Source: Candidatus Roseilinea mizusawaensis (GTDB taxonomy: Bacteria > Chloroflexota > Anaerolineae > J036 > Brachytrichaceae). From it: a DNA stretch of 64,000 nt. A program made the translations under genes and the position numbers. The DNA is taken from contig JAEANN010000020.1 of assembly GCA_016841965.1 (NCBI GenBank), positions 1-64,000 of the forward strand, read 5' to 3'. Positions 33,606-56,529 of the stretch are shown here, in pieces (position 1 is the stretch's first letter; the number at the start of each line of letters is the position of its first letter). The notes below the pieces were generated by a model. It did no database searches and was not told the origin of the DNA. It worked only from the letters and a program-made list of their open reading frames with translations.

Positions 33606-33623
33606 GGTTCCAAGGTGCCGTCT

Positions 33624-35111
33624 ATGAATGAATTGCTTGCGCTTTTGCCCGTACTTGTGCCATTGACGGCGGCTGTTGTGGCGGTGGCGTTGCGCCGCTG
33701 GCATCGCATCCAGTCGGCGTGGTCGTTTGGCGCGATGCTCACCTCGTTGGCGTTTGCCGTGTTGCTGCTGGCCGATGTGTGGGGCCGGGGCCGGCCCCTT
33801 GTGTTTCAGGTTGGCGCATGGCCGGCGCCCTTCGGCATCTCGCTGGTGGGTGATTTGTTGTCGGCGTTGATGGTGCTGATGTGTCAGCTTGTGCTGGCCG
33901 GCGGTTTTCTGTATGCGCTGGGCTGCCGCGATCAGTGCGCGCAATACCCGATGTTCTATCCCCTCTTCCTGCTGCTGGCGACCGGCCTGACCGGCGCGAT
34001 GCTGACCGGCGACCTGTTCAATCTGTTCGTGTTTGCCGAGCTGCTGGTCTTCTCGGGCGCAGCGCTCACGGCCATGTCCGATGACCGCTTCGGCGCAGAG
34101 GCCGCTTACAAGTACTTCTACATCAGCCTGGTGGCGTCGATTGCGCTGCTGTTGGCGTGTGGCAGCCTGTACGTGTCGTATGGCACGCTGAACATGGCTG
34201 ACCTTGCGCAACGCATCGCCGCCGACCCGTCGCCGCCGCTGGTGCTGCCGGCCATGGCGTTGCTGATGGCCTTCTTCATGGTCAAGGGCGCGGTGATGCC
34301 ATTTCATTTCTGGCAGCCCGACTTCCACACTGCCGCGCCGACACCCGTTCATGCTGTACTGTCTTCGGTGGTCGTGAAGCTCGGCATCTACGGCTTTCTA
34401 CGCATGACGACCCTGTTGTTCCCGGCGCAGGCCGATGCGATCCGTGCAATGCTGGTGGTGGCCGGCGCGATTGGGGTGTGGTTTGGTGGCCTGGGCGCAG
34501 TGGGCACCTACGACGCCAAACGCATGCTGGCGTATTCAACGCTGGGCCAGTTGGGGTTCATCCTGGTGGCAGTCGGGTGGGGCACGCCGCTGGCGCTGGC
34601 GGCTGCGATTGTGTATGCCTTTAACCACAGCCTGCTGAAGGCGGCCATGCTCATGCTGGCCGGCAGCGTTGCTAGCCGCGCGCCGGTGAAGACGGCTGCG
34701 TTCGATGTCATCACCGGCGTGGGCAAGAAAATGCCCCTGGCCGGCGTGTTGTTCCTGTTGGGCGGCATGGGACTGGCCGGCATCCCACCTCTTAACGGCT
34801 TCATCGGCAAGCTGATGTTGTTTCAAAGCGGCGTTGAGGCGCAGGCCTGGTTGCCCCTGGCCGCGATTGGCTTGGCCGGCATCATTACCCTGGTCTATGT
34901 GGTGCGCGCCTTTCAGCGCATCTGGTGGGTTCCCATGCCCGAAGGCGCAAAAACCAAACCCTATGGCGATCGCCTGATTGCGCCAACTCTTCTGATCGGG
35001 CTGAGCCTAGCGTTGGGCATCTGGGCAGAACCCTTGTTGCGCCTGGCGTATGCGACCGTGGCCTGGCTTGGCTCGCCAGAGCAATATGTGCGCGCCGTGC
35101 TGGGTGGCTAA
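33624..35111 (+). CDS. mrpD: Mrp antiporter subunit MrpD (operon 1)
   Basis: 495 residues, about 14 helices, of the NuoM/N-like proton-channel family. Conserved features include AELLVFSGAALTAMSDD, HFWQPDFHTAAPTPVHAVLSSVVVK (ion-path Lys), RMLAYSTLGQLG and FNHSLLKAAMLM. The ATG at 33624 is preferred over the GTG at 33615 because it has AAGG 8 nt upstream and gives the family start MNELLALLPVLVPL. Confidence 0.95.
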   Translation: MNELLALLPVLVPLTAAVVAVALRRWHRIQSAWSFGAMLTSLAFAVLLLADVWGRGRPLVFQVGAWPAPFGISLVGDLLSALMVLMCQLVLAGGFLYALGCRDQCAQYPMFYPLFLLLATGLTGAMLTGDLFNLFVFAELLVFSGAALTAMSDDRFGAEAAYKYFYISLVASIALLLACGSLYVSYGTLNMADLAQRIAADPSPPLVLPAMALLMAFFMVKGAVMPFHFWQPDFHTAAPTPVHAVLSSVVVKLGIYGFLRMTTLLFPAQADAIRAMLVVAGAIGVWFGGLGAVGTYDAKRMLAYSTLGQLGFILVAVGWGTPLALAAAIVYAFNHSLLKAAMLMLAGSVASRAPVKTAAFDVITGVGKKMPLAGVLFLLGGMGLAGIPPLNGFIGKLMLFQSGVEAQAWLPLAAIGLAGIITLVYVVRAFQRIWWVPMPEGAKTKPYGDRLIAPTLLIGLSLALGIWAEPLLRLAYATVAWLGSPEQYVRAVLGG

Positions 35112-35155
35112 CGCGCGCTGTGCGTGCGGTGTGCGTGATGAAAGGTGGTGATGCG

Positions 35156-35431
35156 ATGGACAACATTTTGAACGCCGCCATTGTGGCGTCTTTGATCTGG
35201 CATGTTGTGTTGCTGGGTGTGGCGCTATGGCGCATCATGCGGGGCGAAAGCCCGGTGGATCGCTTGCTGGGCGTGGAACTTGCGAGTGTTTTGATTCTAT
35301 GCGCGCTGGTGTTGATCGCCCTGTTCACCGGCCAAGACCTGTACATGGATGTCGCGCTGGTTGTGGCAGCCTTGAGCTTTATCGGCACGCTGGCGCTGGC
35401 GCGTTATCTAGCCGATCAGCGCATGTTCTGA
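35156..35431 (+). CDS. mrpF: Mrp antiporter subunit MrpF (operon 1)
   Basis: 91 residues with three helices. WRIMRGESPVDRLLGVE and the YMDVALVVAALSFIGTLALARY segment match MrpF. The ATG at 35156 follows AAAGGTGG. It comes straight after mrpD with no mrpE between them, unlike operon 2. Confidence 0.92.
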   Translation: MDNILNAAIVASLIWHVVLLGVALWRIMRGESPVDRLLGVELASVLILCALVLIALFTGQDLYMDVALVVAALSFIGTLALARYLADQRMF

Positions 35432-35443
35432 CGCGAGGACGAT

Positions 35444-35836
35444 ATGGACTTCACACTCAAACTGATCTTGCAAGCTGTTGCGCTGCTGGCGATTGTTGGC
35501 GGCAGCTTGTTTTCACTCATCGGCGTGCTGGGTTTCATCCGGCTGCCCGATGTGTACACGCGCTTGCACGCCGCCGGCAAAGTCAGCGTCTTTGGCGCGC
35601 TGCTGCTGGTTGTGGCGGCGGTGGCGCTCGAATCGCTCGGTGTGGGCAAGGCCCTGGTACTGATCGCTTTGCTCATCATCGCCGGCCCGGCGGTGTCGCA
35701 TGCGCTCGCCTCGGCTGCATATCGCACCGGCGTTCCGATGAAGCGCGTCGAGCGCGATGACCTGGCTCAAGCGCGGTCAGCGCCGCTGGGGCCTGGCCTG
35801 CACGGCGCCGATTCATCCGCTGACCTGCCTGTATAG
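35444..35836 (+). CDS. mrpG: Mrp antiporter subunit MrpG (operon 1)
   Basis: 130 residues with three helices. The motif IGVLGFIRLPDVYTRLHAAGK is diagnostic for MrpG/PhaG. The C-terminal tail is charged and Pro-rich. Its TAG stop lies within the TATAGT that may be the promoter of operon 2. Confidence 0.93.
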   Translation: MDFTLKLILQAVALLAIVGGSLFSLIGVLGFIRLPDVYTRLHAAGKVSVFGALLLVVAAVALESLGVGKALVLIALLIIAGPAVSHALASAAYRTGVPMKRVERDDLAQARSAPLGPGLHGADSSADLPV

Positions 35837-35837
35837 T
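35832..35837 (+). promoter_or_regulatory. -10 box, predicted leaderless start of Mrp operon 2
   Basis: TATAGT overlaps the mrpG stop and ends 8 nt before the mrpA2 ATG. GGGG 4 nt before the ATG could instead serve as a weak ribosome-binding site. Confidence 0.4.
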
Positions 35838-35845
35838 GGGGCCTC

Positions 35846-38800
35846 ATGTTCACGCCGACGTTGACATTGGCGATTGCATGGATTGCCTGCGCAGCCGGCT
35901 CGATCGTGGCCCTTGCGCTGGCAATCCTGCCGGCTGCGCGGCGACTACCCGCGCCGCTGCTGGGCTGGATGCTGGCGATTGCGCCGGCGACGGCATTTGT
36001 CGCGCTGGCTGCTCAACTCCCGCGTCTCTTCGCGGGCGAAGTCCTGACCTGGCGCGTGGAATGGCTGCCGGCGCTGGGGGTGAGCTTCGGCCTCTATCTC
36101 GACGGCCTCAGCGCCTTGTTTGGGCTGATTGTGACCGGCATCGGTGGGTTGGTGCTTATTTACGCCGGCTACTACTTCGCCCCGACGCATCATCACACAC
36201 CCGTTCATGCGTCAATCGCCAATCCCCAATCGCCAAATCCAGAATCCCAAATCCAAAATCCAAAATCGAATGATGCCCGCTTCTTCGTGTACACCCTGCT
36301 GTTCATGACCTCGATGCTGGGGGTAGTGCTGGCCGGCGATGCGATCACTCTGTTCGTGTTTTGGGAGGGCACCAGCGTCACCTCGTTCCTGCTGATTGCC
36401 TACAAGACCAAAGACGAAGAGGCGCGCAAAGGTGCGTTCAAAGCCTTGTTCATCACCGGCGGCGGCGGCATTGCGCTGCTGGCCGGACTGCTGATTGTGT
36501 CGGCCATCAGCGGCGGCGCTGACTGGGCAACCATATTCCGCAGCGGCGCTGCGCTGCGCGACAGCCCCTGGTATCCGGTCATGCTCGGCCTGATCGCGTT
36601 CGGCGCGTTCACCAAAAGCGCGCAGGCCCCGTTCCACTTCTGGTTGCCGACGGCGATGAGCGCGCCGACGCCGGCCTCGGCCTACCTGCACTCGGCCACC
36701 ATGGTCAAAGCCGGCGTGTACATCCTGGCGCGCATGCACCCTGCGCTGGGCAACACCGACCTGTGGTTCTGGCTGCTGGTCATCACCGGCGCCGCCACCA
36801 TGGTAATGGGGGCCATCATCGGCCTGCGCCAGGTGGACTTGAAGGCTGTGCTGGCCTATTCCACCATCAGCCAGTTGGGGGTGCTGGTGATGTTGATTGG
36901 TGAGGAAGCCACCGCCGCCTTCAAGGCGCTGGTGATTGGCGTTCTGGCGCACGCGTTGTATAAGGGCGCGCTGTTCATGATTGTCGGCGTGGTGGATCAC
37001 GCTACCGGCACGCGCGATTTGCGCCGGCTTGGGCGTATCTGGCGCGCCATGCCGTTGACGTTCGCCGTGTGTAGCGTCGCTGCGCTTTCTATGGCCGGTT
37101 TGCCGCCGTTGTTCGGCTTTCTGGCCAAGGAGGCGCTGCTGGCGGCTGAAATCGAAGCAGTGCTGCCGGCCATCATGCGCGTGATCCTGCCGGCGGCGAC
37201 CGTCTTGACCGGCGCGTTCATACTTGCTCAGGCGGGCACACTGGCGCTTGACACGTTCGTCACCCCTGCCGGCGCCGGCTTTTTCAAGACCGTGGTCGAT
37301 CTGCCCCTGACAGGCGAGGGGCGCGATGACCCTGAAGATGTGGAGACCATTGACCGGAGCAAGCCGGCGCATGCCCACATCGAACAGACACTTGCCGCTC
37401 ACGATCCGCCTCTTGCCATGCTGATCGGACCGGCGGTTCTGGCTGCTTTGTCCGTCATCATTACAGTTTTTCAGCCCCAGATGTTCACCGACCTGCTGGC
37501 CGGTGCTGCGTCGGCCGCTTATGGCGCAAAAGTCAAAGTCTCGCTCGATCTCTTTCACGGCATCAACCTGCCGCTGATATTGAGCGCGATAGCCATCGTG
37601 TTTGGCGTCGGGGTGTTCGTGTTGCGCAGCCCCATTCGTTCGGTGAACGGGCTGCCGGCGCTGTCGATGAACCGCGTCTACGAGCGCGCATTGAGCGCCA
37701 TCGACCGGCTGGCTGCGCTGGCTACGCGAACACAGGGCGGTCGCATCCGGGTGTACCTCAGCGTCATTCTGGTGGCCCTGTTTGGCATGATAGCCTTGCT
37801 TGGCAATCTGTCGCAGCTATTTGCCGGCCTGCCCCTGGCGCGCCTCGGCGAGCATTTCGTTAAAGATTTGCTCGATCCGATGGCTCTCTTGCGTGCTTTC
37901 AGTCTGTTGCTGGCGGTTGCCGCTGCCTTTGTGTCGGTGATGATGCGGCGCGACCTGCTGGCGATCATTGCCCTCGGCGCTTCAGGGCTTGCGGTGGCCG
38001 TGCTGATCGCGCTGGAGCCGTCGCCCGATGTGGCGCTTGTACAGGTAGTGGTCGATCTGCTATCCACCGTCATTCTGATTCTGGCGCTCTCGCATCTGCC
38101 GGGCGCCCAACTCAGTCGAGCCGAAGCCCTGAACCATACGGATCGCGCCGCTGCTGCGCGCAATGCGCTGTTGGCGTTCATCGGCGGCGCCATTGTGACC
38201 GTGATGTGCTTGTATGCGTTTGCATCGCGTCCACGCGAATCGGTTGTGACGCCGTATTACGAACAGAACGCCAAACCGTTGACCGGCGCCGCCGATATCG
38301 TGGGCGCGATTGTGGTGGACTTTCGCGGCTTCGACACGCTGATCGAGATCACCGTTTTCAGCATGGCCGGCATCGGCGTCTTCACCCTGCTGCGCAAGGC
38401 CCTGACACGCCGCGAAGCGCAACGCGCGTTGCCAAATGGCGAGTCGCCGGCGCGCCAAGGCCTCGATGCTTTCCGCGCCTCGCCCTTCACGCACGCCCTG
38501 ACCTATGCAGCGTTGCCGCTGGCGTTCGTGTTGGCGTCGGTGCAGATGATTCACGGCCACGACGAGCCGGGAGATGGGTTCACTGCCGGCGTCACCCTCA
38601 GCCTCGCGGTCGGTTTCTGGTACGTCATCTTCGGCTACGAGGTTGCCAAACAACGCCTGAGGGCGCTGCGCCCCGGCCTGCTGATCGGGCTTGGTCTGCT
38701 GACGGTGATCGCCGGCTCGATCGCGCCGGCCTTCCTGGGCGGAACATTCTTTTCCCCCTTCGATTTCGGCGCTGCACTGGGGCTGCCCCTGCCTGCCGGC

Positions 38801-38911
38801 TTTTACCTGAGCACATCTTTCCTGTTCGAGCTGGCGATCTGCCTGGCTGTGCTTGGGGCTGCGCTGTTCATCATTGACACACTCGGACATCCCGAAGGAG
38901 AGCTGGAGTAG
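35846..38911 (+). CDS. mrpA: Mrp antiporter subunit MrpA with fused MrpB domain (operon 2)
   Basis: A 1021-residue paralogue of the operon 1 MrpA, similar along its full length: NuoL-like channel (HSATMVKAGVYILAR, VLAYSTISQLG, HALYKGALF), MbhD/E-like part, and C-terminal MrpB domain with IHGHDEPGDGFTAGV. It has a longer acidic insertion near residues 470-515. Residues ~123-141 are encoded by eight 7-bp repeats at the same loop as in the paralogue. The Na+/H+ antiport role is inferred from the family. Confidence 0.95.
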   Translation: MFTPTLTLAIAWIACAAGSIVALALAILPAARRLPAPLLGWMLAIAPATAFVALAAQLPRLFAGEVLTWRVEWLPALGVSFGLYLDGLSALFGLIVTGIGGLVLIYAGYYFAPTHHHTPVHASIANPQSPNPESQIQNPKSNDARFFVYTLLFMTSMLGVVLAGDAITLFVFWEGTSVTSFLLIAYKTKDEEARKGAFKALFITGGGGIALLAGLLIVSAISGGADWATIFRSGAALRDSPWYPVMLGLIAFGAFTKSAQAPFHFWLPTAMSAPTPASAYLHSATMVKAGVYILARMHPALGNTDLWFWLLVITGAATMVMGAIIGLRQVDLKAVLAYSTISQLGVLVMLIGEEATAAFKALVIGVLAHALYKGALFMIVGVVDHATGTRDLRRLGRIWRAMPLTFAVCSVAALSMAGLPPLFGFLAKEALLAAEIEAVLPAIMRVILPAATVLTGAFILAQAGTLALDTFVTPAGAGFFKTVVDLPLTGEGRDDPEDVETIDRSKPAHAHIEQTLAAHDPPLAMLIGPAVLAALSVIITVFQPQMFTDLLAGAASAAYGAKVKVSLDLFHGINLPLILSAIAIVFGVGVFVLRSPIRSVNGLPALSMNRVYERALSAIDRLAALATRTQGGRIRVYLSVILVALFGMIALLGNLSQLFAGLPLARLGEHFVKDLLDPMALLRAFSLLLAVAAAFVSVMMRRDLLAIIALGASGLAVAVLIALEPSPDVALVQVVVDLLSTVILILALSHLPGAQLSRAEALNHTDRAAAARNALLAFIGGAIVTVMCLYAFASRPRESVVTPYYEQNAKPLTGAADIVGAIVVDFRGFDTLIEITVFSMAGIGVFTLLRKALTRREAQRALPNGESPARQGLDAFRASPFTHALTYAALPLAFVLASVQMIHGHDEPGDGFTAGVTLSLAVGFWYVIFGYEVAKQRLRALRPGLLIGLGLLTVIAGSIAPAFLGGTFFSPFDFGAALGLPLPAGFYLSTSFLFELAICLAVLGAALFIIDTLGHPEGELE
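36212..36267. repeat. Eight-heptad insertion inside mrpA (operon 2)
   Basis: TCAATCG, CCAATCC, CCAATCG, CCAAATC, CAGAATC, CCAAATC, CAAAATC x2 in register. It encodes a loop ending SQIQNPKS, at the homologous site to 30594-30656 but with one heptad fewer. Confidence 0.92.
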
Positions 38912-38916
38912 ACATC

Positions 38917-39249
38917 ATGGAGATTTTGCGAGCATTTGCCATTGGCGCGTTGTTCGGCATCGGCCTCTATCAATTGCTGCGCCGCAACGTCATCCGCGTG
39001 GCGATCGGGTTGGTGATCCTCAGCAATGCGGTCAACCTTTTTCTGCTCTCTGTCGGCGCGTATGATGGCATTGTCGAAGCCTATGCAAAAGCCGTTGGCC
39101 AGCGCAGCGACGCGCTCCCGCAGGCGCTGATCCTCACGGCGATTGTGATCAGCATGGGTGGTTTCTCGTTCATGTTGGCGCTGTTGTATGTCATCGCTGT
39201 GCGCTATCGCACCGGCGACAGTGACGAGGTGCGCGGTTTGAGCCACTAG
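38917..39249 (+). CDS. mrpC: Mrp antiporter subunit MrpC (operon 2)
   Basis: A 110-residue, three-helix NuoK-like subunit. RSDALPQALILTAIVISMG is conserved with the operon 1 copy. GGAG lies 9 nt before the ATG, inside the last codons of mrpA2. Confidence 0.95.
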   Translation: MEILRAFAIGALFGIGLYQLLRRNVIRVAIGLVILSNAVNLFLLSVGAYDGIVEAYAKAVGQRSDALPQALILTAIVISMGGFSFMLALLYVIAVRYRTGDSDEVRGLSH

Positions 39250-39296
39250 ATGCGCGGCCCCTCTGTTCCAGGTCGCCGGCAATATCGGAACACACG

Positions 39297-40838
39297 ATGA
39301 ACGAGATACTGGTCATTCTGCCTGTGCTCATCCCATTGACGGCTGCGGCGGTTGCCATGCTTTTGCGGCCGCTGCCGCGCGCGCAAGCGTTCTGGTCTTT
39401 TGGCGCGATGCTGACGGCGTGTGTGGCAAGCGCCTATCTGCTGTGGACGGTCGCCGGCGCCGGCCAGCCCGTGGTCTTTCAGATGGGCGGCTGGCCGGCC
39501 CCATTCGGCATCACCCTTGTCGCCGACGCGCTCTCCGCGACGTTGGCTTTCATGTCGCAACTTGTGTTCGTGTTCGGCTTCATCTACGCGCTGGGGGCCA
39601 AAGACAAGGCGGTTCATCACGACACCTTCTATCCCCTCTTTCTGGCGCTGGCTACCGGTCTGACCGGTGGGATGCTCACCGGCGACATCTTCAATCTGTT
39701 TGTCATGGTGGAGCTGGTGGTGATATCTGGCATTGCGCTCACCGCGATGAGCGATGATCGCTATGGCCCCGAAGCCGCGTTCAAGTATTTCCTCATCAGC
39801 ACGGTCGCATCGTTTTGTCTGTTGTTCGGCATTGGCTTGCTCTATGTGGGCTATGGCACACTAAACATGGCTGATCTGGCGCAGCGCATCAGCGCCGACC
39901 CCGGCCAGCCCGTGTTGCCGGCAGCGGTGGTCTTCTTGACAGTCACATTCATGATCAAGAGCGCTGCCGTCCCGTTTCATTTCTGGCAGCCCGACTTTCA
40001 CACCGCCTCACCGACGCCGGTCTCGGCCATGCTCTCGTCGGTGGTGGTCAAAATCGGCGTATACGGCTTTCTGCGACTCACTACCTTGCTCGTTCCGCAG
40101 GTAGAGTGGCTCAACGGCGCGCTGATTGTGATCGGCGTCGCCGGCGTCATCTTCGGTGGCCTAGGCGCCATCGGCACCCACAACGCCAAGCGCATGTTCG
40201 CTTACTCTACGCTGGCGCAGATCGGCTTCATCTATGTTGGTGTGGGGTGGGGCACGCCGTTGTCTCTGGCGGCGGCCGTGCTCTTCACGTTTAACCATGC
40301 GCTGATCAAGAGCGCCATGTTGATGTTGAGCGGGTATCTGGCCAGCCGCGCGCCGGTGAAGACGGCTTCGTTCAGTGTGGTGCGTGGCATGGGCAAGTAT
40401 GCGCCGGCTGCGGGCGTGTTGTTCTTCCTCGGCGGCATGGCGCTGGCCGGCGTGCCGCCGATGAACGGCTTCGTCAGCAAGCTGGCGCTGTTTCAGAGCG
40501 GCGTAGTTGCCGCGCAGGCCGGCCTGATCGAGAGCGAGGCGTTCTTCTGGGTCCCGCTGGCCTTGATCGGACTCTCCAGTGTCCTGACGCTGGTGTATGT
40601 CTTTCGCGCGCTGATGACGGTATGGTGGGAGCCATTCCAGCCCAGGTCGCCCGAGGAAAAAGTCAAGCCGCGCGGCGACAGCCTGCTGGCGCCGGCCGGC
40701 CTGGTGGCGCTGTGTGTCGCGCTTGGCGTCTGGGGGCAGCCCCTCGTCCAGTGGTCGCAGGACGTGAGCGCCTGGATGGCGCAGCCGCAGCGCTATGTGC
40801 GCGCGGTGCTGGGGCCAGAGGCAACCTGGCTTAGATGA
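39297..40838 (+). CDS. mrpD: Mrp antiporter subunit MrpD (operon 2)
   Basis: A 513-residue NuoM/N-like channel subunit. The key segments are VELVVISGIALTAMSDD, HFWQPDFHTASPTPVSAMLSSVVVK, RMFAYSTLAQIG and FNHALIKSAMLM. The family start MNEILVILPVLIPL supports the ATG at 39297. The C-terminus is slightly longer than in the operon 1 copy. Confidence 0.95.
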   Translation: MNEILVILPVLIPLTAAAVAMLLRPLPRAQAFWSFGAMLTACVASAYLLWTVAGAGQPVVFQMGGWPAPFGITLVADALSATLAFMSQLVFVFGFIYALGAKDKAVHHDTFYPLFLALATGLTGGMLTGDIFNLFVMVELVVISGIALTAMSDDRYGPEAAFKYFLISTVASFCLLFGIGLLYVGYGTLNMADLAQRISADPGQPVLPAAVVFLTVTFMIKSAAVPFHFWQPDFHTASPTPVSAMLSSVVVKIGVYGFLRLTTLLVPQVEWLNGALIVIGVAGVIFGGLGAIGTHNAKRMFAYSTLAQIGFIYVGVGWGTPLSLAAAVLFTFNHALIKSAMLMLSGYLASRAPVKTASFSVVRGMGKYAPAAGVLFFLGGMALAGVPPMNGFVSKLALFQSGVVAAQAGLIESEAFFWVPLALIGLSSVLTLVYVFRALMTVWWEPFQPRSPEEKVKPRGDSLLAPAGLVALCVALGVWGQPLVQWSQDVSAWMAQPQRYVRAVLGPEATWLR

Positions 40839-40868
40839 ATAGCGATCTTGATCGAAGGAGAGATGTAT

Positions 40869-41351
40869 ATGCTGGCCTATGCTCGTCTGGTTCTGATATG
40901 TCTCCTGCTTTTTCTGGCGCTGACAGAGAACGTGGAGCTTTCAAACATTGTTCTTGGCGCGCTGATCGGGATTCTCGTGGCTGTCATTCTGAAGCCGGCG
41001 CCTGAAAGCCTGTCGATCCGCCGGCTGCCGGTGGCGTTGTTCAACCTGGCGCGCTACACCGCCTGGCTCGCCGTTGACATCATTCGCAACGGCATTCGCG
41101 TCGCACGCATTGTGCTCGATCCAAAGCTGCCCATTCGCCCTGGCATCCTTGCCATCAAGAGCGACATGAAAACCGAGCTTGGCATTGCCCTGAACGCGCA
41201 CGCCATCACGGTGACACCTGGTGAGCAGGTGGTCGAGATCGGCGAAGATGGCACGCTGTACACCCATTGTCTGGATGTGGTTGCCAGCGCCGCCGGCGCT
41301 GAAGCAGCCCAGCGCACACGCCGGCGGCTGATGGAGGGTATCTTCGAATGA
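40869..41351 (+). CDS. mrpE: Mrp antiporter subunit MrpE (operon 2)
   Basis: 160 residues. Two or three N-terminal helices precede a soluble domain with the MrpE pattern IKSDMKTELGIALNAHAITVTPGEQVVEI. The ATG at 40869 has AAGGAG 8 nt upstream. The TTG at 40848 and ATG at 40863 lie before or too close to that site. This is the only mrpE in the window and may serve both operons. Confidence 0.93.
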   Translation: MLAYARLVLICLLLFLALTENVELSNIVLGALIGILVAVILKPAPESLSIRRLPVALFNLARYTAWLAVDIIRNGIRVARIVLDPKLPIRPGILAIKSDMKTELGIALNAHAITVTPGEQVVEIGEDGTLYTHCLDVVASAAGAEAAQRTRRRLMEGIFE

Positions 41352-41623
41352 AGGCGGTCTTCGAGAGCGTTCTGATCCTTGCCCTCGTCATCCATATCGG
41401 CCTCATCTCGGTTGCCGTCTGGCGTGTGTGGCGTGGCGAGACAGTGATGGATCGGCTTCTGGCAGCCGATGTGATCGGCACCGTCGTGCTGGCCATCTTC
41501 GTGCTGTTGGGGCTGATTCATGGAAACGAGTTGTATATCGATGTCGCGCTGGGTTTCGCGGCGCTCACATTCATCAGCACCATTGCGTTGGCGCGCTATG
41601 TCGCCCGGCGCCAGGTGTTCTGA
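41348..41623 (+). CDS. mrpF: Mrp antiporter subunit MrpF (operon 2)
   Basis: 91 residues, three helices. WRVWRGETVMDRLLAADVIG and YIDVALGFAALTFISTIALARYV match MrpF. The ATG overlaps the mrpE stop (ATGA), indicating translational coupling. Confidence 0.93.
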   Translation: MKAVFESVLILALVIHIGLISVAVWRVWRGETVMDRLLAADVIGTVVLAIFVLLGLIHGNELYIDVALGFAALTFISTIALARYVARRQVF

Positions 41624-41640
41624 AACGGCGGTATAGCCCT

Positions 41641-42018
41641 ATGCTTGAAACCATCGCATACGCAGCCGCAATACTGGCTGTTGTGGTCGGCACCCTCTTC
41701 TCGATCGTCGGTATCATCGGTCTGGTGCGGCTTCCAGATGTATATACGCGCCTGCACGCAGCCGGCAAAGTCTCCACATTCGGCGTGGCGTTGCTCGCCG
41801 TGGCGGCGGTGCTGGCCGTTCCCTACGCCTGGAGCCGTGGGCTGCTGCTGATCGTGTTGGTGTTGCTGGCCGGGCCGGTTGTGTCTCATGTCATCGGATC
41901 GGTCGCCTATCGCACAGGCGTCCCCATGCGTGGCGCCGTCCGCGATGATCTTGCCGGCCGCATCTCCCCGGCTTCGCGCGACGCTGTGCGCGCCATGCAT
42001 GAGCAAGAGCAGGTCTAG
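41641..42018 (+). CDS. mrpG: Mrp antiporter subunit MrpG (operon 2)
   Basis: 125 residues, three helices. GIIGLVRLPDVYTRLHAAGKVSTFG is near-identical to the operon 1 MrpG motif. Last gene of Mrp operon 2. An alternative start of the next gene (ATG 41999) would overlap its end. Confidence 0.93.
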   Translation: MLETIAYAAAILAVVVGTLFSIVGIIGLVRLPDVYTRLHAAGKVSTFGVALLAVAAVLAVPYAWSRGLLLIVLVLLAGPVVSHVIGSVAYRTGVPMRGAVRDDLAGRISPASRDAVRAMHEQEQV

Positions 42019-47252: not shown

Positions 47253-48140
47253 TTACAGCAGTGCCTGCAGCGCCCGATAGCCGATCACGTGTACTCCGAT
47301 TCCCTTCAGGTAACGCGGGATTTCGGGGCGCAGGAACGTTTCGAGGTTGGCGACCCGGCTGGGCCAGTCCGGCGCAATGGCGCGCAGTTCGGGGGTGTCT
47401 TCGGCGGGATGCAAGATAAACACCGTGATGCCGGCCGGCAGCGCGTCGAACGCGCGTTTGGCGTAGTCGAGCTGGTCATGGGGATTGCTCAGCGGCATAC
47501 CGGTGGTGCGGTCGATCAACGGCACGCCGGCTGACTCCAGTTCGGCCAACAGGCGCGCTGTGTGATCGGCGTCTTCTGCGCTCATGCCGCGTTGCTGCAA
47601 TTGCGTCCTGTCCATGCGCGGCAGCATTGGCACGAGATGGTGCGCCAGCGCCAGGTCGATGTAGCCGCGCAGCAGAGCGGTGTGCATGACAGCGCCCATG
47701 TGGGTGTCGATGTGGGTGAGCGGGACGCCGGCGGCGCGTGCGCGCGCGACCTGCGCAGCCAGTTCACGGTGTGCAGCCTCCGGCGCAGCGTGACGTTGGG
47801 CGTCCTGGGTTGTGCGATAGAAGCAACCTTCATCGTCCATCAGCCCAGAGGCCGGATCACGGGTAGAGAGCGGCCCCCAGCGGTAGAGATCCCATTCGCA
47901 GGTAAGGGTGGTGTGCACACCCATGTCCACATCAGGGTGGGCGCGGCAGAAAGCGACGGCGGCCGGGAACCATGCGCAGGGGGGCATCAGCGCGGCTGAG
48001 GAGATGCTGCCGGCCTCAATTAATTTCGCATAGGCAGAGATTGTGGCCTGACACATGCCAACATCATCTGCATGAATAATCACCACACGATCAGTATCAC
48101 ACAGGCCAAGCCGGCGCAGCACTGGGTTCGGGCCAAGCAT
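47253..48140 (-). CDS. YdjC/ChbG-type carbohydrate deacetylase
   Basis: 295 residues. The metal-binding motif is VIIHADDVGM (His-x-Asp-Asp) with HIDTHMG downstream, plus GVHTTLTCEW. These are the marks of the ChbG/HpnK polysaccharide-deacetylase family, which removes N-acetyl groups from oligosaccharides. The ATG at 48140 lies 19 nt after the rhaB stop and has TTGAGG 9 nt upstream. As the last gene of the rhamnose operon it may deacetylate an acetylated rhamnoside. That substrate is inference. Confidence 0.85.
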   Translation of the reverse strand: MLGPNPVLRRLGLCDTDRVVIIHADDVGMCQATISAYAKLIEAGSISSAALMPPCAWFPAAVAFCRAHPDVDMGVHTTLTCEWDLYRWGPLSTRDPASGLMDDEGCFYRTTQDAQRHAAPEAAHRELAAQVARARAAGVPLTHIDTHMGAVMHTALLRGYIDLALAHHLVPMLPRMDRTQLQQRGMSAEDADHTARLLAELESAGVPLIDRTTGMPLSNPHDQLDYAKRAFDALPAGITVFILHPAEDTPELRAIAPDWPSRVANLETFLRPEIPRYLKGIGVHVIGYRALQALL

Positions 48141-48159: not shown

Positions 48160-49578
48160 TCAATGCTTCGGCTCAAATCGAACGATGTCGAATGAGCGCC
48201 GCACGACCTCACGCAGTTCCGCAAGCGAGCCAATCTCGCCGGCGCCCATCGCCTGAGTCAACACATTGCCAATGGCAGTGCCCTCCACTGGCCCGGCGAT
48301 CACTGGCCGGCGGCATACGTTGGCAGTGAGCTGGTTCAAGATGTGGCTGCGCGAGCCGCCGCCGACTACGTGAATCGTCTCGATGCGCTGGCCGATCAAA
48401 CCTTCGATCTGTTCGATCACCGTGCGATAGGCCTGTGCCAGGCTGGCGTAGATCAGGCGGGCAAACTCACCAGGCGTGCTGGGTACAGGCTGGTGCGTCT
48501 GCTGACATTTCTGCACGATTGCCTTGCGCATGTCGGCCGGATGCAGAAAAGCGTCGTCGTTCGGATCCACGACCGACGGAAAGCCAGAAGCCTCGTTAGC
48601 CATTTGAGTGATCTGGTCGTAAGAGTAGTCGCGCCCCTCAGCTTTCCACTCGGCCCGGCAACGTTGAATCAGCCACAGCCCCATCACATTCTTCAGCAAA
48701 CGGATCTTGCCGCCAACCCCGCCCTCATTGGTGACGTTGGCAGCTAGCGCCTGCGCGTTGATGACCGGCTGATCAACTTCTACGCCGACTAGCGACCATG
48801 TGCCCGACGAGATGTAGGCGCGGGCGCCGCTGCCCGGCGCAAACGGCACGGCAGCTACGGCAGAAGCCGTGTCATGCGAGCCAACCAGCACGACCGCTGC
48901 ATCATTGATCCCGGCTTCGTCGCGCACGCTGGGCAAGAGTTGCCCCAGCTTTGTGCCCGGCATCACTACATCACCGAACAGCGAAGCCGGCATTCCCACC
49001 CCTTCGAGCAGCTCGTGCGACCAGGCTCGGGCGCGGGCGTCAAACGCTTGCGATGTGGTGGCGATGGTGTACTCGTTGGCCATCACGCCCGTCATCCAAT
49101 AGTGCAGCAGATCGGGCATCATCAGGCAGCGCCGGGCCAGATCGACCTTGCCGGGGTTATGCTCGCGCTCTACAGACCACTGGTAAAGGGTGTTGATGGG
49201 CATGAACTGGATGCCGGTGATCTCGAAGATACGCTCGCGCCCCAGTTTGGCGCATACCCGCTCCAGTACGCCATCGGTGCGCGCATCGCGGTAGCAGTAC
49301 GGATTGGCGAGCAGGTCGCCGTTCTGATCGACCAGTGCGTAATCCACGCCCCACGTGTCCACGCCCATGGCTGCCACATCGCCGGACTGGGCAGCGGCGC
49401 GCATGCCGTTTTTGATTTCGCGCCACAGGCCAAGGATGTCCCAGTACAGGTTGTCCTTCACCCGCACGCCGCCGTTGGGGAAGCGATGCGCTTCGCTCAG
49501 GGTCAGTTTACCGTCGCGCAGGTCGCCGATGATGGCGCGCCCGCTTTCTGCGCCGATATCGAATGCAAGATACCTCAT
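48160..49578 (-). CDS. rhaB: Rhamnulokinase
   Basis: A 472-residue FGGY-family kinase that phosphorylates L-rhamnulose at C1. MRYLAFDIGAESGRAIIGDL is the N-terminal phosphate motif, MGVDTWGVDYALVD the sugar-binding segment with catalytic Asp, VGSHDTASAV the ATPase core and HVVGGGSRSHILNQL the adenosine motif. The length is normal for RhaB. It lies in the leftward rha operon behind rhaI, separated by a heptad-repeat spacer with a 14-bp hairpin. Confidence 0.93.
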   Translation of the reverse strand: MRYLAFDIGAESGRAIIGDLRDGKLTLSEAHRFPNGGVRVKDNLYWDILGLWREIKNGMRAAAQSGDVAAMGVDTWGVDYALVDQNGDLLANPYCYRDARTDGVLERVCAKLGRERIFEITGIQFMPINTLYQWSVEREHNPGKVDLARRCLMMPDLLHYWMTGVMANEYTIATTSQAFDARARAWSHELLEGVGMPASLFGDVVMPGTKLGQLLPSVRDEAGINDAAVVLVGSHDTASAVAAVPFAPGSGARAYISSGTWSLVGVEVDQPVINAQALAANVTNEGGVGGKIRLLKNVMGLWLIQRCRAEWKAEGRDYSYDQITQMANEASGFPSVVDPNDDAFLHPADMRKAIVQKCQQTHQPVPSTPGEFARLIYASLAQAYRTVIEQIEGLIGQRIETIHVVGGGSRSHILNQLTANVCRRPVIAGPVEGTAIGNVLTQAMGAGEIGSLAELREVVRRSFDIVRFEPKH

Positions 49579-49584
49579 AATGGC

Positions 49585-49675
49585 GATTTTCGATTCTCGA
49601 TTTTGGATTTGTCAATCAGTTGTGGATTGCGAGACGGTGGGCACTCGCAATCCACAATCGCAAATCGCTAATCGG
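49585..49675. repeat. 13-heptad palindromic array between rhaB and rhaI
   Basis: Thirteen 7-mers keep register across the whole 91 bp. The left half is GATTTTC-type and the right half CAATCGC-type, i.e. inverted. The core arms TTGTGGATTGCGAG (49620-49633) and CTCGCAATCCACAA (49644-49657) pair perfectly over a 10-nt loop. The array supplies the rhaI stop codon. Confidence 0.92.
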
Positions 49676-50885
49676 CGGTGGGGTAGCCACTGCCGCCGGC
49701 GTCAGCGATGCCGCGCTGCTGAGCAATTTTGGCTTCGTACCCGCTGGCGTGCAATGCGTGAATGGGGTCGGGGTCGATGCCCATTTCGATGCGCACCTGT
49801 TCGAGCAATGGGCGCACATCGGTCTCGAAAGCTGCATTCAGTTCACGATAAGCGCCCAGCACGTCGCACTCGGCTTGCTTCTCGGCCAGCGCCTTGCGAT
49901 TGACAATCAATGCTTTGGCATAGGCGCTTTGAATGTTCATGACCGATTGAACCATGGCTTCGATCTTCGGCTCGATGTTGTGAGACTGGTCGATCATGTA
50001 GGCTACGTCTTTGGCTGCGTCGCCGGCATTCACCAATTCGTGATAGATCAAGAACAGCTCGAACGGATTGGAAGTGCCAACGATTAGGTCGTCGTCGCCG
50101 TATTTGCGAGCATTGAAGTGGAAGCCGCCTAGCCGGCCCAGGTCGAGCAGGGTCGCCACGATGTGCTCGATATTGGTGCCCTGGGGGTGATGACCGGTGT
50201 CAACCAGCACGACCGCCTGCGGGCCAAGCTGCATCGCCAGGCTGTAGGCCACACCCCAGTCGCTCAGGTCGGTGTGGTAAAACGCTGGCTCGTAGAACTT
50301 ATACTCGATCAGCATGCGCATGGAGGCCGGCATGGCCGCATACACCTCGGCCAGTGATTCAATCATGCGATGCCGGCGACCCACCAGTGAATCTTGGCCG
50401 GCGTAGTTGGTGCCGTCGGCGTACCACAGGCTCAACGCATTCGACCCCAACACTTTGGCAATCTCGATGCATTCCAGATGATGATCGACGGCTTTGCGGC
50501 GCACCTTCGGGTCTGGATGGGTGATGCTGCCAAACTTGTAGATATCATTTTGGAACGTATTCGTGTTGATTGCGCCGAGGCGAATGCCCAGATCGGTCGC
50601 TTCTTGTCGCAGTTCTTCCCAGTCTTTCACCTTATCCCACGGGATGTGCAGTGCTACGGTCGGGCACACGCCGGTTAGCTTGTTGACCATGGCGGCATCG
50701 GCGATCTTCTCGTGCACATCGCGCGCGGCGCCAGGATAGGCAAAGGTCTTGAAGCGCGTGCCGCTGTTCCCATAGCCCCACGACGGCGTCTCGATATGCT
50801 GCGTCTTGAGCTTTGACTTGACCCACTCAACATCGATGCCGCGTTCGGTCAGGTGTTCGGCCAGTATCTCGTATTGTTTGCTCAT
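49668..50885 (-). CDS. rhaI: L-rhamnose isomerase (RhaI type)
   Basis: A 405-residue xylose-isomerase-like TIM barrel that converts L-rhamnose to L-rhamnulose. [15 protein letters not shown] and [13 protein letters not shown] are the RhaI N-terminal motifs. Metal ligands lie in [23 protein letters not shown] and [18 protein letters not shown]. It resembles the Pseudomonas stutzeri/Gram-positive type rather than E. coli RhaA. It lies between rhaM and rhaB in one leftward operon. Confidence 0.93.
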
Positions 50886-51017: not shown

Positions 51018-51338
51018 TCAGTCCAGATGAAACACTTCTTCCAACACCAGCAACCCCTGGTCCGGCCGCTGGTCTCCCAGTTGCTCAAAGAAGGGGGCCA
51101 TGTCGGCTTGCCAGCGCGCATTGACTTCCTTTGCCGCCATGCCGGCCCGGGCTGCCTCGAAGTCTGGCGTCTCGAGATAGCCGAACAGGGTGCCATCCTC
51201 GCGCAGAAACAGTGAGTAATTGCGCCAGCCGGTTTCTCGCAGCGCAGCCAGCATCTCCGGCCAAACCTCACGATGGCGATGCTTGTACTCCTCGATTTTG
51301 TCCTGCTTCACTTTTAGCAGGAATGCAACTCGTTGCAT
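51018..51338 (-). CDS. rhaM: L-rhamnose mutarotase
   Basis: 106 residues, the usual RhaM length. It interconverts rhamnose anomers ahead of the isomerase. MQRVAFLLKVKQDKIEEYKHRH (catalytic His region), REVWPEMLAALRETGWRNYSLFL and LFGYLETPDFEAA match the family. The ATG at 51338 gives the family start; GAGG precedes it. It lies 38 nt downstream of the regulator gene. Confidence 0.93.
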   Translation of the reverse strand: MQRVAFLLKVKQDKIEEYKHRHREVWPEMLAALRETGWRNYSLFLREDGTLFGYLETPDFEAARAGMAAKEVNARWQADMAPFFEQLGDQRPDQGLLVLEEVFHLD

Positions 51339-51376: not shown

Positions 51377-53155
51377 TTAGCGCGCCATCGCCGTGGCGCT
51401 CGATTCGACGACTTTGACCTCGCGATTTGCTGCGCACAACGGCATGTGCTCGTCATTGACAGCGTCCGCGGGGTACATTTGCCGGACATTATCAGGCGTG
51501 ATCAGCATGTGGTCGGTGAACACGGCCGGCGGTGTGCGGCGATTCATCAGGATGTCAATCGCCAGTTGGATTGCCTTTGGCCCATAGTTTTCTGGGAAGT
51601 AGTCGACTGCGCCGATGAGCATGGGGTTATGGGCGGCAAGTTCGCGGCGGATGCGCGTGCTGGCATTCTGGCTGATGACGGCGGTGTGGTGTTGCCGGTC
51701 GAGTGTTTGTGCGGCTGCCAACGCCCCAAGCGCCGAATTCGCGTTGATGCCGACGAAGAGCACGCGCTTGCCCCACGGGATATTGCGCAAGGCTTGGGTG
51801 GCTGCCAGTTGTGATCCCTCCAGGTCGCCGCGTGTCGCGTAGCGCTGGATATCGTCGCCGGCGATTGGAATGGCTGCGCGCAAGCTGTCGATCTGACCTT
51901 GAATGCGCGCGGCCGGCACCGGCCCCGACTCCGGCTGCCCCAGGCACACCACCTTGTCCACCCGCCCGTTCCAGTGCTCCTGAATCCAGCGCACGGCAGC
52001 GTCCCCGGCGATGCGCCCGGCGCGATAGTTGTCCACGCCCAAGAACGTAGCTCCCGGCGCTGGGATGTCGATGGCAATGACTGGAATCTGCGCCGAGCGG
52101 AACATATCCATCACAATGTTGTTGATGCGCTCGTCCTGCTGATACTCGATCAGCAGGTCTACTTTGGCGTCTAGTAGACGCCGCGCGTTGGTCAAGGCAA
52201 TGTCTGGATCAGCCTGGTTGTCGGCAAGCAACAACTCGATCGAGCCGCGTTGATGCGCCGCGCGCTCGATGCTTTGCCGCACCGAAACGGCAAACTCTTG
52301 CTTTTCAGTCAAGTTGGCGAAGCCGATGCGCCACTTGCGTTCCTGTGGGGCATCGGCGCACAACTGGGTGATGTGTTCGCCGCACAATGAGACTTGTACG
52401 CCGGCTGCGCGCAAGGTGTTCAGCATATCGGGTGGGGCGCTTTCGCCGGTGATCAGGTGATGGGCCTGATGCAAATTGGCAAAGCTGACGAGAGCCGACC
52501 GGCCCACTGCGTCGGCGTTGCCCAGCATGATCGCTGTTTGCGCGCTGCCCAGCATGGCTGCTTTGGTCTGTGCGCTGGCGATGTCGTCCTCGGCGAAGCC
52601 CTGTTGCTGGCTTAGGCCATCGAACGTGATGAACGCCTTTTGCGCGCGCAGGCCGGCCAGTGCTGCGGCTGCAGTTGGCCCGTCGAGGCTCACGCGGCCC
52701 TGGCGCATCTGCCCGCCGATCAAAATGACGGTGTGCCCCGGGTTACGCACCAGCGCTGTGGCGATGTGAATGCTGTTGGTGAGCACCGTCAAGGTTTTCA
52801 GGCGCAGCAAGTCGTCAACCATGGCCTGCGTGATTGGGCTGCCGGCGACCAGAATCGAGTCGCCTTCCTTCACCAATGAGGCGGCGCGCTTGGCGATTGT
52901 GAGGATTGCTTTGTAATCCGCTTGGTTGTTGGCCCCGGCGGGCGGCAATGGGCCGGCCGCCTGCCCATGCTGTATGCCGCTTAAGACTGCACCGCCGTGC
53001 GTGCGGATCACGTCGCCCTGGGCCTGTAGGGCGCGCAGGTCATTCCGCACAGTGCCCTCAGAAACCTGAAGCAACTCTACCAATTGAGTCAGGCTGACTG
53101 TTCCGTTCTGTAACAGCAGATCGATGATCGCGCGTCGGCGTTCGATGGGCTTCAT
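51377..53155 (-). CDS. DeoR regulator fused to a periplasmic-binding-type sugar domain
   Basis: 592 residues, about twice the length of a normal DeoR regulator. Residues 1-57 are the DeoR helix-turn-helix (RRRAIIDLLLQNGTVSLTQL with recognition helix VSEGTVRNDL). Residues ~78-240 are the DeoRC phosphosugar sensor (EGDSILVAGSP, LTNSIHIA, GGQMRQGRVS, EDDIASAQTKAAML). Residues ~275-570 are a LacI/RbsB-like binding domain (WRIGFANL, IPVIAIDIPAPGATFLGVDN, VLFVGINANSALG). There is no signal peptide, so both sensors are cytoplasmic. It is first in the rhamnose operon and presumably regulates it and the divergent operon. Confidence 0.87.
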   Translation of the reverse strand: MKPIERRRAIIDLLLQNGTVSLTQLVELLQVSEGTVRNDLRALQAQGDVIRTHGGAVLSGIQHGQAAGPLPPAGANNQADYKAILTIAKRAASLVKEGDSILVAGSPITQAMVDDLLRLKTLTVLTNSIHIATALVRNPGHTVILIGGQMRQGRVSLDGPTAAAALAGLRAQKAFITFDGLSQQQGFAEDDIASAQTKAAMLGSAQTAIMLGNADAVGRSALVSFANLHQAHHLITGESAPPDMLNTLRAAGVQVSLCGEHITQLCADAPQERKWRIGFANLTEKQEFAVSVRQSIERAAHQRGSIELLLADNQADPDIALTNARRLLDAKVDLLIEYQQDERINNIVMDMFRSAQIPVIAIDIPAPGATFLGVDNYRAGRIAGDAAVRWIQEHWNGRVDKVVCLGQPESGPVPAARIQGQIDSLRAAIPIAGDDIQRYATRGDLEGSQLAATQALRNIPWGKRVLFVGINANSALGALAAAQTLDRQHHTAVISQNASTRIRRELAAHNPMLIGAVDYFPENYGPKAIQLAIDILMNRRTPPAVFTDHMLITPDNVRQMYPADAVNDEHMPLCAANREVKVVESSATAMAR

Positions 53156-53185: not shown

Positions 53186-53213
53186 ATTATAGAAGCAGCA
53201 TTCGGCTTGTCAA
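53186..53213 (-). promoter_or_regulatory. Consensus sigma-70 promoter of the rha operon
   Basis: On the minus strand TTGACA (53213-53208), a 16-nt spacer and TATAAT (53191-53186). Both hexamers are perfect. The predicted leader to the regulator ATG is about 25 nt. Confidence 0.75.
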
Positions 53214-53447: not shown

Positions 53448-54314
53448 ATGCGCTTTGGGATGTCGGGTTGCTTTCTGCCTTCCAACATGGATGATCTCAC
53501 GCCGCAAATGTGCCGGCGTGTGCGGGCGCTGGGATTCTCCGGCATCTTCACCCGCTTCCGCGACAATCACCCGCTCGACACGCCCAAGTCGAAAGCCGAC
53601 CGCGTGCGGCAGATGATGGCCGATGAGGGCGTGCGCATGTATCAGTGCACCGGCTTTTGGCAGAATCTGGTCACGCCGGATGAGACACAGCGTCGCGAGT
53701 CAGTGCGCGTGTTGCAGGGCGCGCTGCGGCTGGCCGGCCGGCTGGGCGCGCGCGGCATCGACACCGGCCCCGGCTCGATGAATCCCGCCGGCCCCTGGTT
53801 CCCACATCCCGATAACTGGACGCCCTCGGCCCGCCGGCAACTGGTGAAGAGCCTGAAGGAGGCGGCGCCGGCCGCCGAGGACGCCGGCGTTTATCTCAGC
53901 CTCGAAGCCCATCAACTCGTCACTCTCGAAAACGCCGAGATCACCCGCGAAGTGCTGGACGAAGTTGGTTCTGCGTGGGTCAAGAACGATTACGACCCGG
54001 CCAACTGGATCACCCGCGAGATGGTCTTCAACACCACGGCGGCGATCCATCATCACTTCGATGTGCTGGGCCACCACATCATCAGTTGCCACGCCAAAGA
54101 TATCTGGATCGAAAACCGGCTGGCCTTGCATTTGCAAGATGGCTGCCCTGGCAAGGGCCTGATGGATTTCAGAACGCTGTTCCGCCGCATGGAAGCGCTG
54201 AACCCCGACTACCCGCTGATTGCCGAAGGGAACAGCACCGAGGAATTGCCCGAAGTCAGCGCCTTGTTCCACCAACTCGCCGGCGAACTTGGAATCACAG
54301 TCATTCAGGATTGA
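53448..54314 (+). CDS. TIM-barrel sugar isomerase/epimerase (xylose-isomerase-like)
   Basis: A 288-residue AP-endonuclease-2-like barrel. Metal-ligand positions are in LSLEAHQLV (Glu), VKNDYDPANW (Asp), ISCHAKDIWIE (His) and PLIAEGNST (Glu). Enzymes of this family isomerise or epimerise sugars, keto-acids or inositols. CAGGAG lies 7 nt before the ATG. It is first in a rightward operon that diverges from the rhamnose operon, so its substrate may be a rhamnose-related sugar. Confidence 0.85.
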   Translation: MRFGMSGCFLPSNMDDLTPQMCRRVRALGFSGIFTRFRDNHPLDTPKSKADRVRQMMADEGVRMYQCTGFWQNLVTPDETQRRESVRVLQGALRLAGRLGARGIDTGPGSMNPAGPWFPHPDNWTPSARRQLVKSLKEAAPAAEDAGVYLSLEAHQLVTLENAEITREVLDEVGSAWVKNDYDPANWITREMVFNTTAAIHHHFDVLGHHIISCHAKDIWIENRLALHLQDGCPGKGLMDFRTLFRRMEALNPDYPLIAEGNSTEELPEVSALFHQLAGELGITVIQD

Positions 54315-54354
54315 GCGATTGAGCAATTGAGCAATTGAGCAATTGAGCGATTGA
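54315..54354. repeat. 8-bp tandem repeat after a stop codon
   Basis: GCGATTGA, GCAATTGA x3, GCGATTGA in register, starting at the base after the TGA of the isomerase gene. Weaker AACC-rich repeats fill the rest of the spacer to about 54440. Confidence 0.9.
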
Positions 54355-54453
54355 CGCAATATGCACCATCTAACACCCAACACGTAACATGCACCAACCC
54401 TAAACCTTAAGAACCTTAGCAACTTTAACAACCTGAATACCCCCAGAGTACCC

Positions 54454-55209
54454 ATGCCCAACCTTCGTTTTGCAGCCCCACAAGAACGCCGCGTGGCCAT
54501 TGTGACCGGCGGCGCGCGCGGGATTGGCCGCGCCTGCGCCGTGCGCATCGCCGAGGAAGGCCGTGACGTGGTGATTGCTGATGTGCTCGACGCCGGCCCC
54601 GAAGTGGCCCGCGAGATCGAGACGCTTGGCCGGCGCGCGCTGTTTATCAAGACCGATGTGTCGGACGAAGCGGCCGTGCGTGGCATGGTGGCGCAGACCG
54701 TCCAGACGCTGGGCCGGCTTGACATCCTGGTGTGTTGCGCCGGCATCCTGGGCAAAGAAGCGCCCTTCCTCGAGCAGACCTCCGAGATGTTCGACCGCGT
54801 GATGAAGATCAACGTGTATGGCGTGTGGTATGCCCATCATGCGGCCATCCCACACATGCTGGAACGCGGGTGGGGCCGCTGCGTCACCATCACCTCTGGC
54901 GCGCGGCTGGGTGCCACACATGTCCCGCCCTACGGCGCATCGAAAGGCGCTGTGTGGTCGCTGGTGGCGGCGCTGGGCAACGCTTACGCCAAAGAGGGCG
55001 TGTTCGTCAACGGCGTTGAGCCGGGCCGGGCGCTTACCGAGATGGTCGTGCCGCGCTTCTCACCCGAACATCTCGCCAATCCACCCGGCGTGGCTGTAGG
55101 CCGCTACTCCGACCCGGAGGAAGTGGCCGAGGTGGTTGAGTTCCTCACCTCCGAGCGCAACACCTATACCACCGGCTCGGTGTGGAGCGTGAAGGGAGGG
55201 ACGGGGTAG
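54454..55209 (+). CDS. SDR family oxidoreductase (ketoreductase-like)
   Basis: A 251-residue classical SDR. The cofactor motif is TGGARGIGRA, the acidic ADVLD end of strand 2 suggests NAD(H) preference, and CCAGI and the active-site YGASK (Tyr-x3-Lys) are present. The context suggests oxidation of a sugar or sugar acid, as in non-phosphorylative deoxysugar routes, but this is not proved. The start is MPNLRFAAPQERRVAIVTGG; no strong ribosome site is seen. Confidence 0.85.
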   Translation: MPNLRFAAPQERRVAIVTGGARGIGRACAVRIAEEGRDVVIADVLDAGPEVAREIETLGRRALFIKTDVSDEAAVRGMVAQTVQTLGRLDILVCCAGILGKEAPFLEQTSEMFDRVMKINVYGVWYAHHAAIPHMLERGWGRCVTITSGARLGATHVPPYGASKGAVWSLVAALGNAYAKEGVFVNGVEPGRALTEMVVPRFSPEHLANPPGVAVGRYSDPEEVAEVVEFLTSERNTYTTGSVWSVKGGTG

Positions 55210-55257: not shown

Positions 55258-56529
55258 ATGACACACCCTGCTTTCTATCTGCCGGAGAACCCGGCCTACA
55301 CGATTCTCGACAGTCTGCATGACTCGGTGCGCTTCGCCCGGCATTGCCTGACCGATTATCGCGGGCATCGCTGCGCCACCTCTTCATTTGTGGACCCCGA
55401 CGGCGCGCCCATGTTGTGGCACGACTTCGGACCGCTGGAAGGGCCGGGCTGGGCGGCCAACGCCGTGGGCGGCGCGTTTGAGTTGCACGGGTATGCGCGC
55501 GTAATGGGCCGGCCCGATGTGCGTGATGACGCCTTGGGCATCCTCGACCATGTACTGGAAGACGGTTTCATCGATTGGACGACCGGCTTCATCAAGCCGT
55601 ATCGCCACATCCCAGACGACCGGTTGTGCCTGAACTACAAGTCCAACGACGAGTGGTTTTGTCCCGGCTCGCTGGCGTGCATCGGCTCGCAGTTGCTGCG
55701 CTTCGCCGACGCGCTGCCGGCCGGCGACGCCCGCGTGCCGCGCATGCGTCAGGCGGCTATCAAACTGGCCGGCTGGCTCGATGCGCACCTACGGCCGCTG
55801 AAGAGTGGCTGGTTCCCGCGCCGGTGCTACCCCGATGGCGCGCCGTATCCCTTCACGCCGGAGGGGGGCGACGATCCCCTGTTCGAGCGCAGCGCCGACG
55901 GCCTGTTCATCCTGGAATTGTGGGAGCAGTTGACCGGGCGCGGGCTGGCCGACTATCGCAAGCCGTTGCGCAAGTTTGCCCGGCAGGTCGTGAAGCGCGG
56001 CGGCATCTTCGGCAGCATCAACCACGACACCTACGACGAACACGAGAGCGTGGCCTATGCCGTGACGTTCCGCTTGTTCCGCCGGCTGGCCGCGCTGTTG
56101 CGCGACGCCACGTTGAGCGACTTCGCCTACAGGGTAGCGTTGGGTGGGTTGCGCCAGTTCGAGATGAAGGAGGATCGCAACGGCGTGGCGACGCGGGGGC
56201 TGTTGTGGATGGAACGCTCCTGGGACACCGCCTATCTGTGGGAAAACGCCCACGCGGCCCAGGCCTACCTGGAAGCCTATATCGACACCGGCCGCAAGCC
56301 CTACCTTGCCAAGGCGCTCACCATCCTGCGCGCGATTGCCCGCCACCACCATGGCCCGCATGGCTTCCTGAGCGAGGGTGTGGACTGGAACAACCATGTG
56401 TCCGCGCAACACCACTTCGACCACGCCGAGTTCGGCGATATTCGATACACCGAGCCGCTGCTGAACAACCTGCATCTTGCCGAGCCGACCCTGTTCTTCC
56501 TGGAGCGGATCGCGTTGCCGCTGGTGTGA
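55258..56529 (+). CDS. Hypothetical alpha-toroid carbohydrate-active protein
   Basis: 423 residues, mostly helical, with repeated aromatic and acidic segments (SNDEWFCPGSLACIGSQLL, GGIFGSINHDTYDEHESVAYA, MERSWDTAYLWENAHAAQAYLEAY). These look like an (alpha/alpha)6 barrel of glycosidases, lyases or epimerases. No signal peptide. Acidic candidates at the helix ends cannot be assigned. It is third in the rightward sugar operon. I do not recognise the family. Confidence 0.6.
   Translation: MTHPAFYLPENPAYTILDSLHDSVRFARHCLTDYRGHRCATSSFVDPDGAPMLWHDFGPLEGPGWAANAVGGAFELHGYARVMGRPDVRDDALGILDHVLEDGFIDWTTGFIKPYRHIPDDRLCLNYKSNDEWFCPGSLACIGSQLLRFADALPAGDARVPRMRQAAIKLAGWLDAHLRPLKSGWFPRRCYPDGAPYPFTPEGGDDPLFERSADGLFILELWEQLTGRGLADYRKPLRKFARQVVKRGGIFGSINHDTYDEHESVAYAVTFRLFRRLAALLRDATLSDFAYRVALGGLRQFEMKEDRNGVATRGLLWMERSWDTAYLWENAHAAQAYLEAYIDTGRKPYLAKALTILRAIARHHHGPHGFLSEGVDWNNHVSAQHHFDHAEFGDIRYTEPLLNNLHLAEPTLFFLERIALPLV

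Follow-up and report, generated by a model that had tools for sequence, protein, structure and literature searches.

Which of two putative sensor domains does a sugar-operon regulator use when a DeoR-type repressor and a sugar-binding protein are joined in a single chain? This question is raised by a gene situated at positions 51377-53155 on the reverse strand of a 64,000-nucleotide stretch of Candidatus Roseilinea mizusawaensis DNA (hereafter "the window", meaning the whole stretch that was analysed). The gene is one unbroken open reading frame of 592 amino acids, and all its domains lie in the same frame: an HTH_DeoR DNA-binding domain (residues 6-58, 52982..53140, reverse strand; PF08220, 1.4e-17), a DeoRC domain (residues 86-237, 52445..52900, reverse strand; PF00455, 1.6e-32) and an RbsB-like Peripla_BP_4 domain (residues 277-537, 51545..52327, reverse strand; PF13407, 2.6e-20), with all three Pfam matches exceeding the curated cut-offs. 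The three-part chain that a previous sequence-only reading had described is therefore real at the level of domain assignment. That reading had called the third domain "LacI/RbsB-type", of which the RbsB likeness holds and "LacI-type" is imprecise, the domain grouping with the binding proteins of CUT2 ABC transporters. In NCBIfam, residues 1-260 match DeoR repressors such as AgaR and SrlR, and a portion of the remaining protein matches RbsB, in all cases below the equivalog cut-offs. The protein has the N-terminal HTH_DeoR and the (ISOCOT-type) DeoRC domain of the DeoR/GlpR family, but not the size typical of it (around 250 aa, with no extra domain); it also has the periplasmic-binding-protein-like sensor domain of the LacI/GalR family without the LacI-type helix-turn-helix, its own being of the DeoR type. 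An AlphaFold model computed with the window protein and one relative (L005) as input was too poor (pLDDT 37) and was set aside. A literature search, with most subscription journals outside its scope, found no described fusion of a DeoR regulator and a binding protein, and no ligand, footprint or structure for a fused member came to light.

Such a chain could be produced by an assembly or sequencing error merging two genes, and the mark named for it beforehand was that relatives would have a stop near residue 265. In relatives with 34-89% identity no stop was found at the junction, and these proteins are full length. Gene calling on the fetched loci gave 54 full-length fusions in Chloroflexota, the window protein counted, with the same order of parts, in about 50 assemblies and without a stop at the junction. 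On this comparison the merging-error explanation of the window frame is refuted by its relatives; nothing was found in its favour, and we give it practically no credence. Within the family of the window organism there are 12 full-length copies (53-100% identity) in 11 of 28 genomes, and two other families of the phylum contain one full-length fusion each. A class-wide profile search of 396 genomes, in which three candidates were scored per genome, found matches at E <= 1e-70 in 50 of them, from 34 genera, and nearly all of these matches are full length; a plasmid search returned no site covering 80% of the query. Long open frames at DeoR matches in L016, L018 and L028 were considered as additional fusions and are actually plain DeoRs. 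Among close pairs, the HTH has a dN/dS of 0.02-0.06, DeoRC one of 0.03-0.12 and the binding-protein domain one of 0.04-0.09, against values of 0.2-1 in the linker (pairs whose dS was undefined were omitted, and some other pairs are near saturation). Purifying selection thus acts on all three domains, and is absent on the linker and the tail.

The position of the gene at the head of a rhamnose operon, also proposed from the letters alone, is confirmed by the genes directly downstream on the same strand: rhaM, of the L-rhamnose mutarotase family (51018..51338; TIGR02625, 3.4e-20, 72 bits, below the curated cut-off of 99.6), rhaI, the L-rhamnose isomerase gene (49668..50885; TIGR02635 equivalog, above cut-off), and rhaB, coding for rhamnulokinase (48160..49578; TIGR02627, 1.7e-150, 501.6 bits, slightly below the curated cut-off of 527.95). 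The run ends, still on the reverse strand, with a YdjC-family carbohydrate deacetylase-like gene (47253..48140; PF04794), whose position is kept in L037 and L038. Linkage to rhamnose catabolic genes, a trait of DeoR-type RhaR repressors, is thus present for the window regulator. The window genome contains no close RhaEW aldolase, the matches covering the dehydrogenase part alone at about 30% identity. A sigma70-type promoter, TTGACA-N16-TATAAT (53186..53213, reverse strand), is found 30 bases 5' of the regulator start codon; this perfect match occurs once in the window and never in shuffles. In five relatives (L037, which is the same locus as L005, and L038, L039, L009 and L040) the regulator gene is likewise preceded by this element, with TTC ahead of the -10 box. 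A simple scan for tandem repeats with 10-11 bp spacing found nothing above shuffles upstream of the window gene, and tandem hexamers reaching p <= 0.01 (approximate values, from dinucleotide shuffles) in 12 of 57 regulator upstream regions, where about one would be expected. The known operator of Chloroflexus aurantiacus RhaR ranks only 9 in 100 shuffles in the same scan, and a degenerate operator upstream of the window gene could therefore escape it.

Other genes in the window can be mentioned here. TIM-barrel sugar isomerase-like and SDR genes (53448-55209, forward strand) are divergent from the regulator; at L045, where rha genes are absent, their homologues directly adjoin the fused regulator, which makes them possible members of its regulon. 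Also divergent beside the regulator is a gene for a 423-aa protein (55258-56529, forward strand), kept in L037 and L038, with no Pfam or NCBIfam match at 1e-5. Farther away, two consecutive and similar gene sets (30259-42018, forward strand) resemble Mrp-type antiporter operons in gene order and size only.

Six positions of the DeoRC domain were compared: three in the D-x-S/G-T-T motif (Asp, Thr and Thr), one Glu, and two in D-x-S-K (Asp and Lys). According to PMC10991401, LacR and UlaR need this Asp/Lys pair to bind their effectors. None of the six canonical residues is present in the window protein (which has A104, P107, I108, S194, N213 and A216), and 0-1 are found in all 12 proteins of its clade, with the Asp of the Asp/Lys pair missing in every one. 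On the other hand, 5-6 residues are retained in 19 of 19 plain DeoRs, three Chloroflexales RhaR among them, and 4-6 in 37 of the 38 members of the large Anaerolineae fused clade (the exception, L078, has two). Three Chloroflexales fusions retain 1-2, and their nearest relative, L047, all six. The cut-off for loss (two residues or fewer) was set after the data had been seen, the distribution being strongly two-peaked. In a tree of the binding-protein domain, from which the site columns were excluded, loss of the site amounts to three changes, occurring only among fusions. Thus, the "complete" DeoRC domain of the sequence-only reading stands as a fold match and fails as a canonical sensor, its effector-binding residues being substituted.

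These substitutions also bear on the suggested AND/OR gate of two working sugar sensors, in which the binding-protein domain would sense free rhamnose, DeoRC would sense rhamnulose or its phosphate, and both would set DNA binding. Although both sensor domains are present and under purifying selection, plain RhaR senses L-rhamnulose, and the site is largely kept in the main Anaerolineae clade, the gate is unsupported for the window protein, because all six positions are substituted and the clade as a whole retains at most one; we consider it unlikely here. Both sites look intact in most relatives outside the window clade, so that dual sensing can fairly be hypothesised for those, and relatives with intact DeoRC sites are more plausible candidates for a two-sensor gate than the window protein. 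A different possibility is that DeoRC has been remodelled rather than lost, binding another metabolite while the binding-protein domain serves as the sugar sensor. The motif [AC]GSPIT, or a close form of it, replaces DxSTT in 10 of the 12 window-clade members, across diverged genera, and this conservation suggests that the domain may bind something new, not nothing; the low dN/dS of the domain points the same way. Nonetheless, positions 194, 213 and 216 differ among clade members; this variation agrees better with loss than with a new site common to all of them, and the remodelled site seems to us quite improbable.

The binding-protein domain is the most conserved part of the protein within the clade, with 34% invariant columns vs 18% in DeoRC. 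Among solved structures it is closest to binding proteins of the ribose type (it was aligned to 2ioy, 2gx6 and others). Residues F288, D363 and N471, the equivalents of F15, D89 and N190 of RbsB, are retained in nearly all fusions, while R90 of RbsB is replaced by I364, D215 by N497 and Q235 by an aromatic residue; with these three changed, a sugar other than ribose is the likely ligand. The RbsB residue letters used here match the 2gx6 alignment from the PDB over the part that it displays. The counterpart of R141 is uncertain, being Q419 in the multiple alignment and R417 in the pairwise one. Eight fused regulators adjoin a binding protein (PBP) 41-45% identical to their own domain, and the window domain shows 40-44% identity to these eight; between regulator domain and adjacent PBP, 13-16 of 24 pocket positions are identical, a raw count that exceeds the overall identity. 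No close second copy of the domain was found in the window genome.

Broadly, the window protein is probably an autoregulated RhaR-type repressor of the rhamnose operon, with the sensing role transferred from DeoRC to the added ribose-binding-protein-like domain, the proposed working sensor. The DeoR winged helix would bind near the promoter at 53186-53213 and repress rhaR-rhaM-rhaI-rhaB; L-rhamnose or L-rhamnulose would enter the cleft of the C-terminal domain, which would close upon it, and the closure would be relayed through DeoRC, acting as a scaffold that joins the subunits, so that DNA is released.

The neighbourhoods of the relatives bear on the ligand. A rhamnose-gene homologue is found within 10 kb of 28 of the 54 fusions, and two or more lie near 16; the remaining 26, some of them on short contigs, have none within that distance. 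These counts are approximate, because a few of the rhamnose-gene matches show only 23-30% identity and many contigs are short. An ABC ATPase homologue is present near 38 fusions and a paralogous binding protein near 11. In the adjoining operons of L041-L046, members of the window clade, there is no clear rhamnose pathway, and some clade members may therefore respond to a ligand other than rhamnose. It could be argued that the regulator senses another deoxy sugar or a glycoside, and lies near rha genes in some lineages only: nearly half of the fusions lack a rhamnose-gene homologue nearby, as counted above, and paralogous PBPs adjoin arabinose/fucose-isomerase-like genes. We find this doubtful, given that the regulator directly precedes rhaM-rhaI in both the window's genus and a second genus, and that a GH106 alpha-L-rhamnosidase gene (L085:10543-13578) directly adjoins the fused regulator of another member. 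As a separate observation, RhaF, the binding protein for rhamnose transport in Chloroflexus (L118:10837-12963, about 708 aa), matches RhaS and Peripla_BP_4 twice, and for that reason looks like a tandem duplication; comparably long proteins occur in several Anaerolineae loci.

Regarding origin, a single branch separates the fusions from all other sequences in the trees of both parts (SH-aLRT 88 for the DeoR part and 93 for the binding-protein part; quick, unrooted trees without bootstrap). This fits a single fusion event behind all the fusions, while falling short of proof. Separate capture by each regulator of the PBP of a neighbouring transporter was also considered, and was rejected because the adjacent binding proteins form their own clade (together with two Rhizobium transporter proteins) and the fusions fall on one side of a single branch. 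It is nearly as likely as not that one ancient fusion, in which the repressor of a sugar operon acquired a sugar-binding protein of the transporter type, freed the DeoRC sensor, whose effector site would then have been lost three times while DeoRC was kept as a scaffold. The family would accordingly comprise two-sensor and sensor-swapped forms, with the unfused one-sensor RhaR available for comparison. The unfused repressor, whose ligand is known, the fusions in which both sensor sites are intact and those that have lost the old site make up a natural series for how a gene switch may change what is sensed while its job stays the same, so that sensor replacement becomes directly testable through binding assays on a handful of proteins. 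A match to the DeoRC domain alone should not be equated with phosphosugar sensing.

Among known systems, the RhaR of C. aurantiacus (Caur_2209) shares with the fusions the DeoR helix-turn-helix and DeoRC, heads a rhamnose operon, and has the same operon position as the fused members that precede a rhamnose transporter. It is a repressor that binds TCGAAA-type repeats arranged in tandem; L-rhamnulose releases it, whereas L-rhamnose and glucose do not (PMC3870299), and release from DNA by L-rhamnulose has been demonstrated for this unfused protein only. In the presumed C. aurantiacus genome of our set (G144), the nine-gene rhamnose operon starts with a plain 274-aa DeoR; unlike the fusions, this RhaR has no binding-protein domain and, unlike the window protein, it retains the canonical residues of the DeoRC site. 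The Chloroflexales RhaR, a candidate for the direct unfused orthologue of the fusions, falls among the remaining plain DeoRs of the unrooted tree. AraR of Bacillus subtilis combines a GntR helix-turn-helix with a GalR/LacI-type sugar domain (PMC4218819), and thus resembles the window protein in placing the DNA-binding part of another family before a sugar-binding-protein-like sensor at a sugar operon; it differs in having a GntR instead of a DeoR helix-turn-helix, and no DeoRC in between. The effector domain of Escherichia coli DeoR (PDB 7l6l), the best solved match to the DeoRC profile of the family, has the same fold and retains DCGTT, the Glu and DHSK, none of which is found in the window protein. 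Finally, the closest relatives of the C-terminal domain are RbsB-type binding proteins of CUT2 ABC transporters (including the eight adjacent PBPs and the two from Rhizobium), which, unlike the fusions, are transport proteins with no attached DNA-binding domain.
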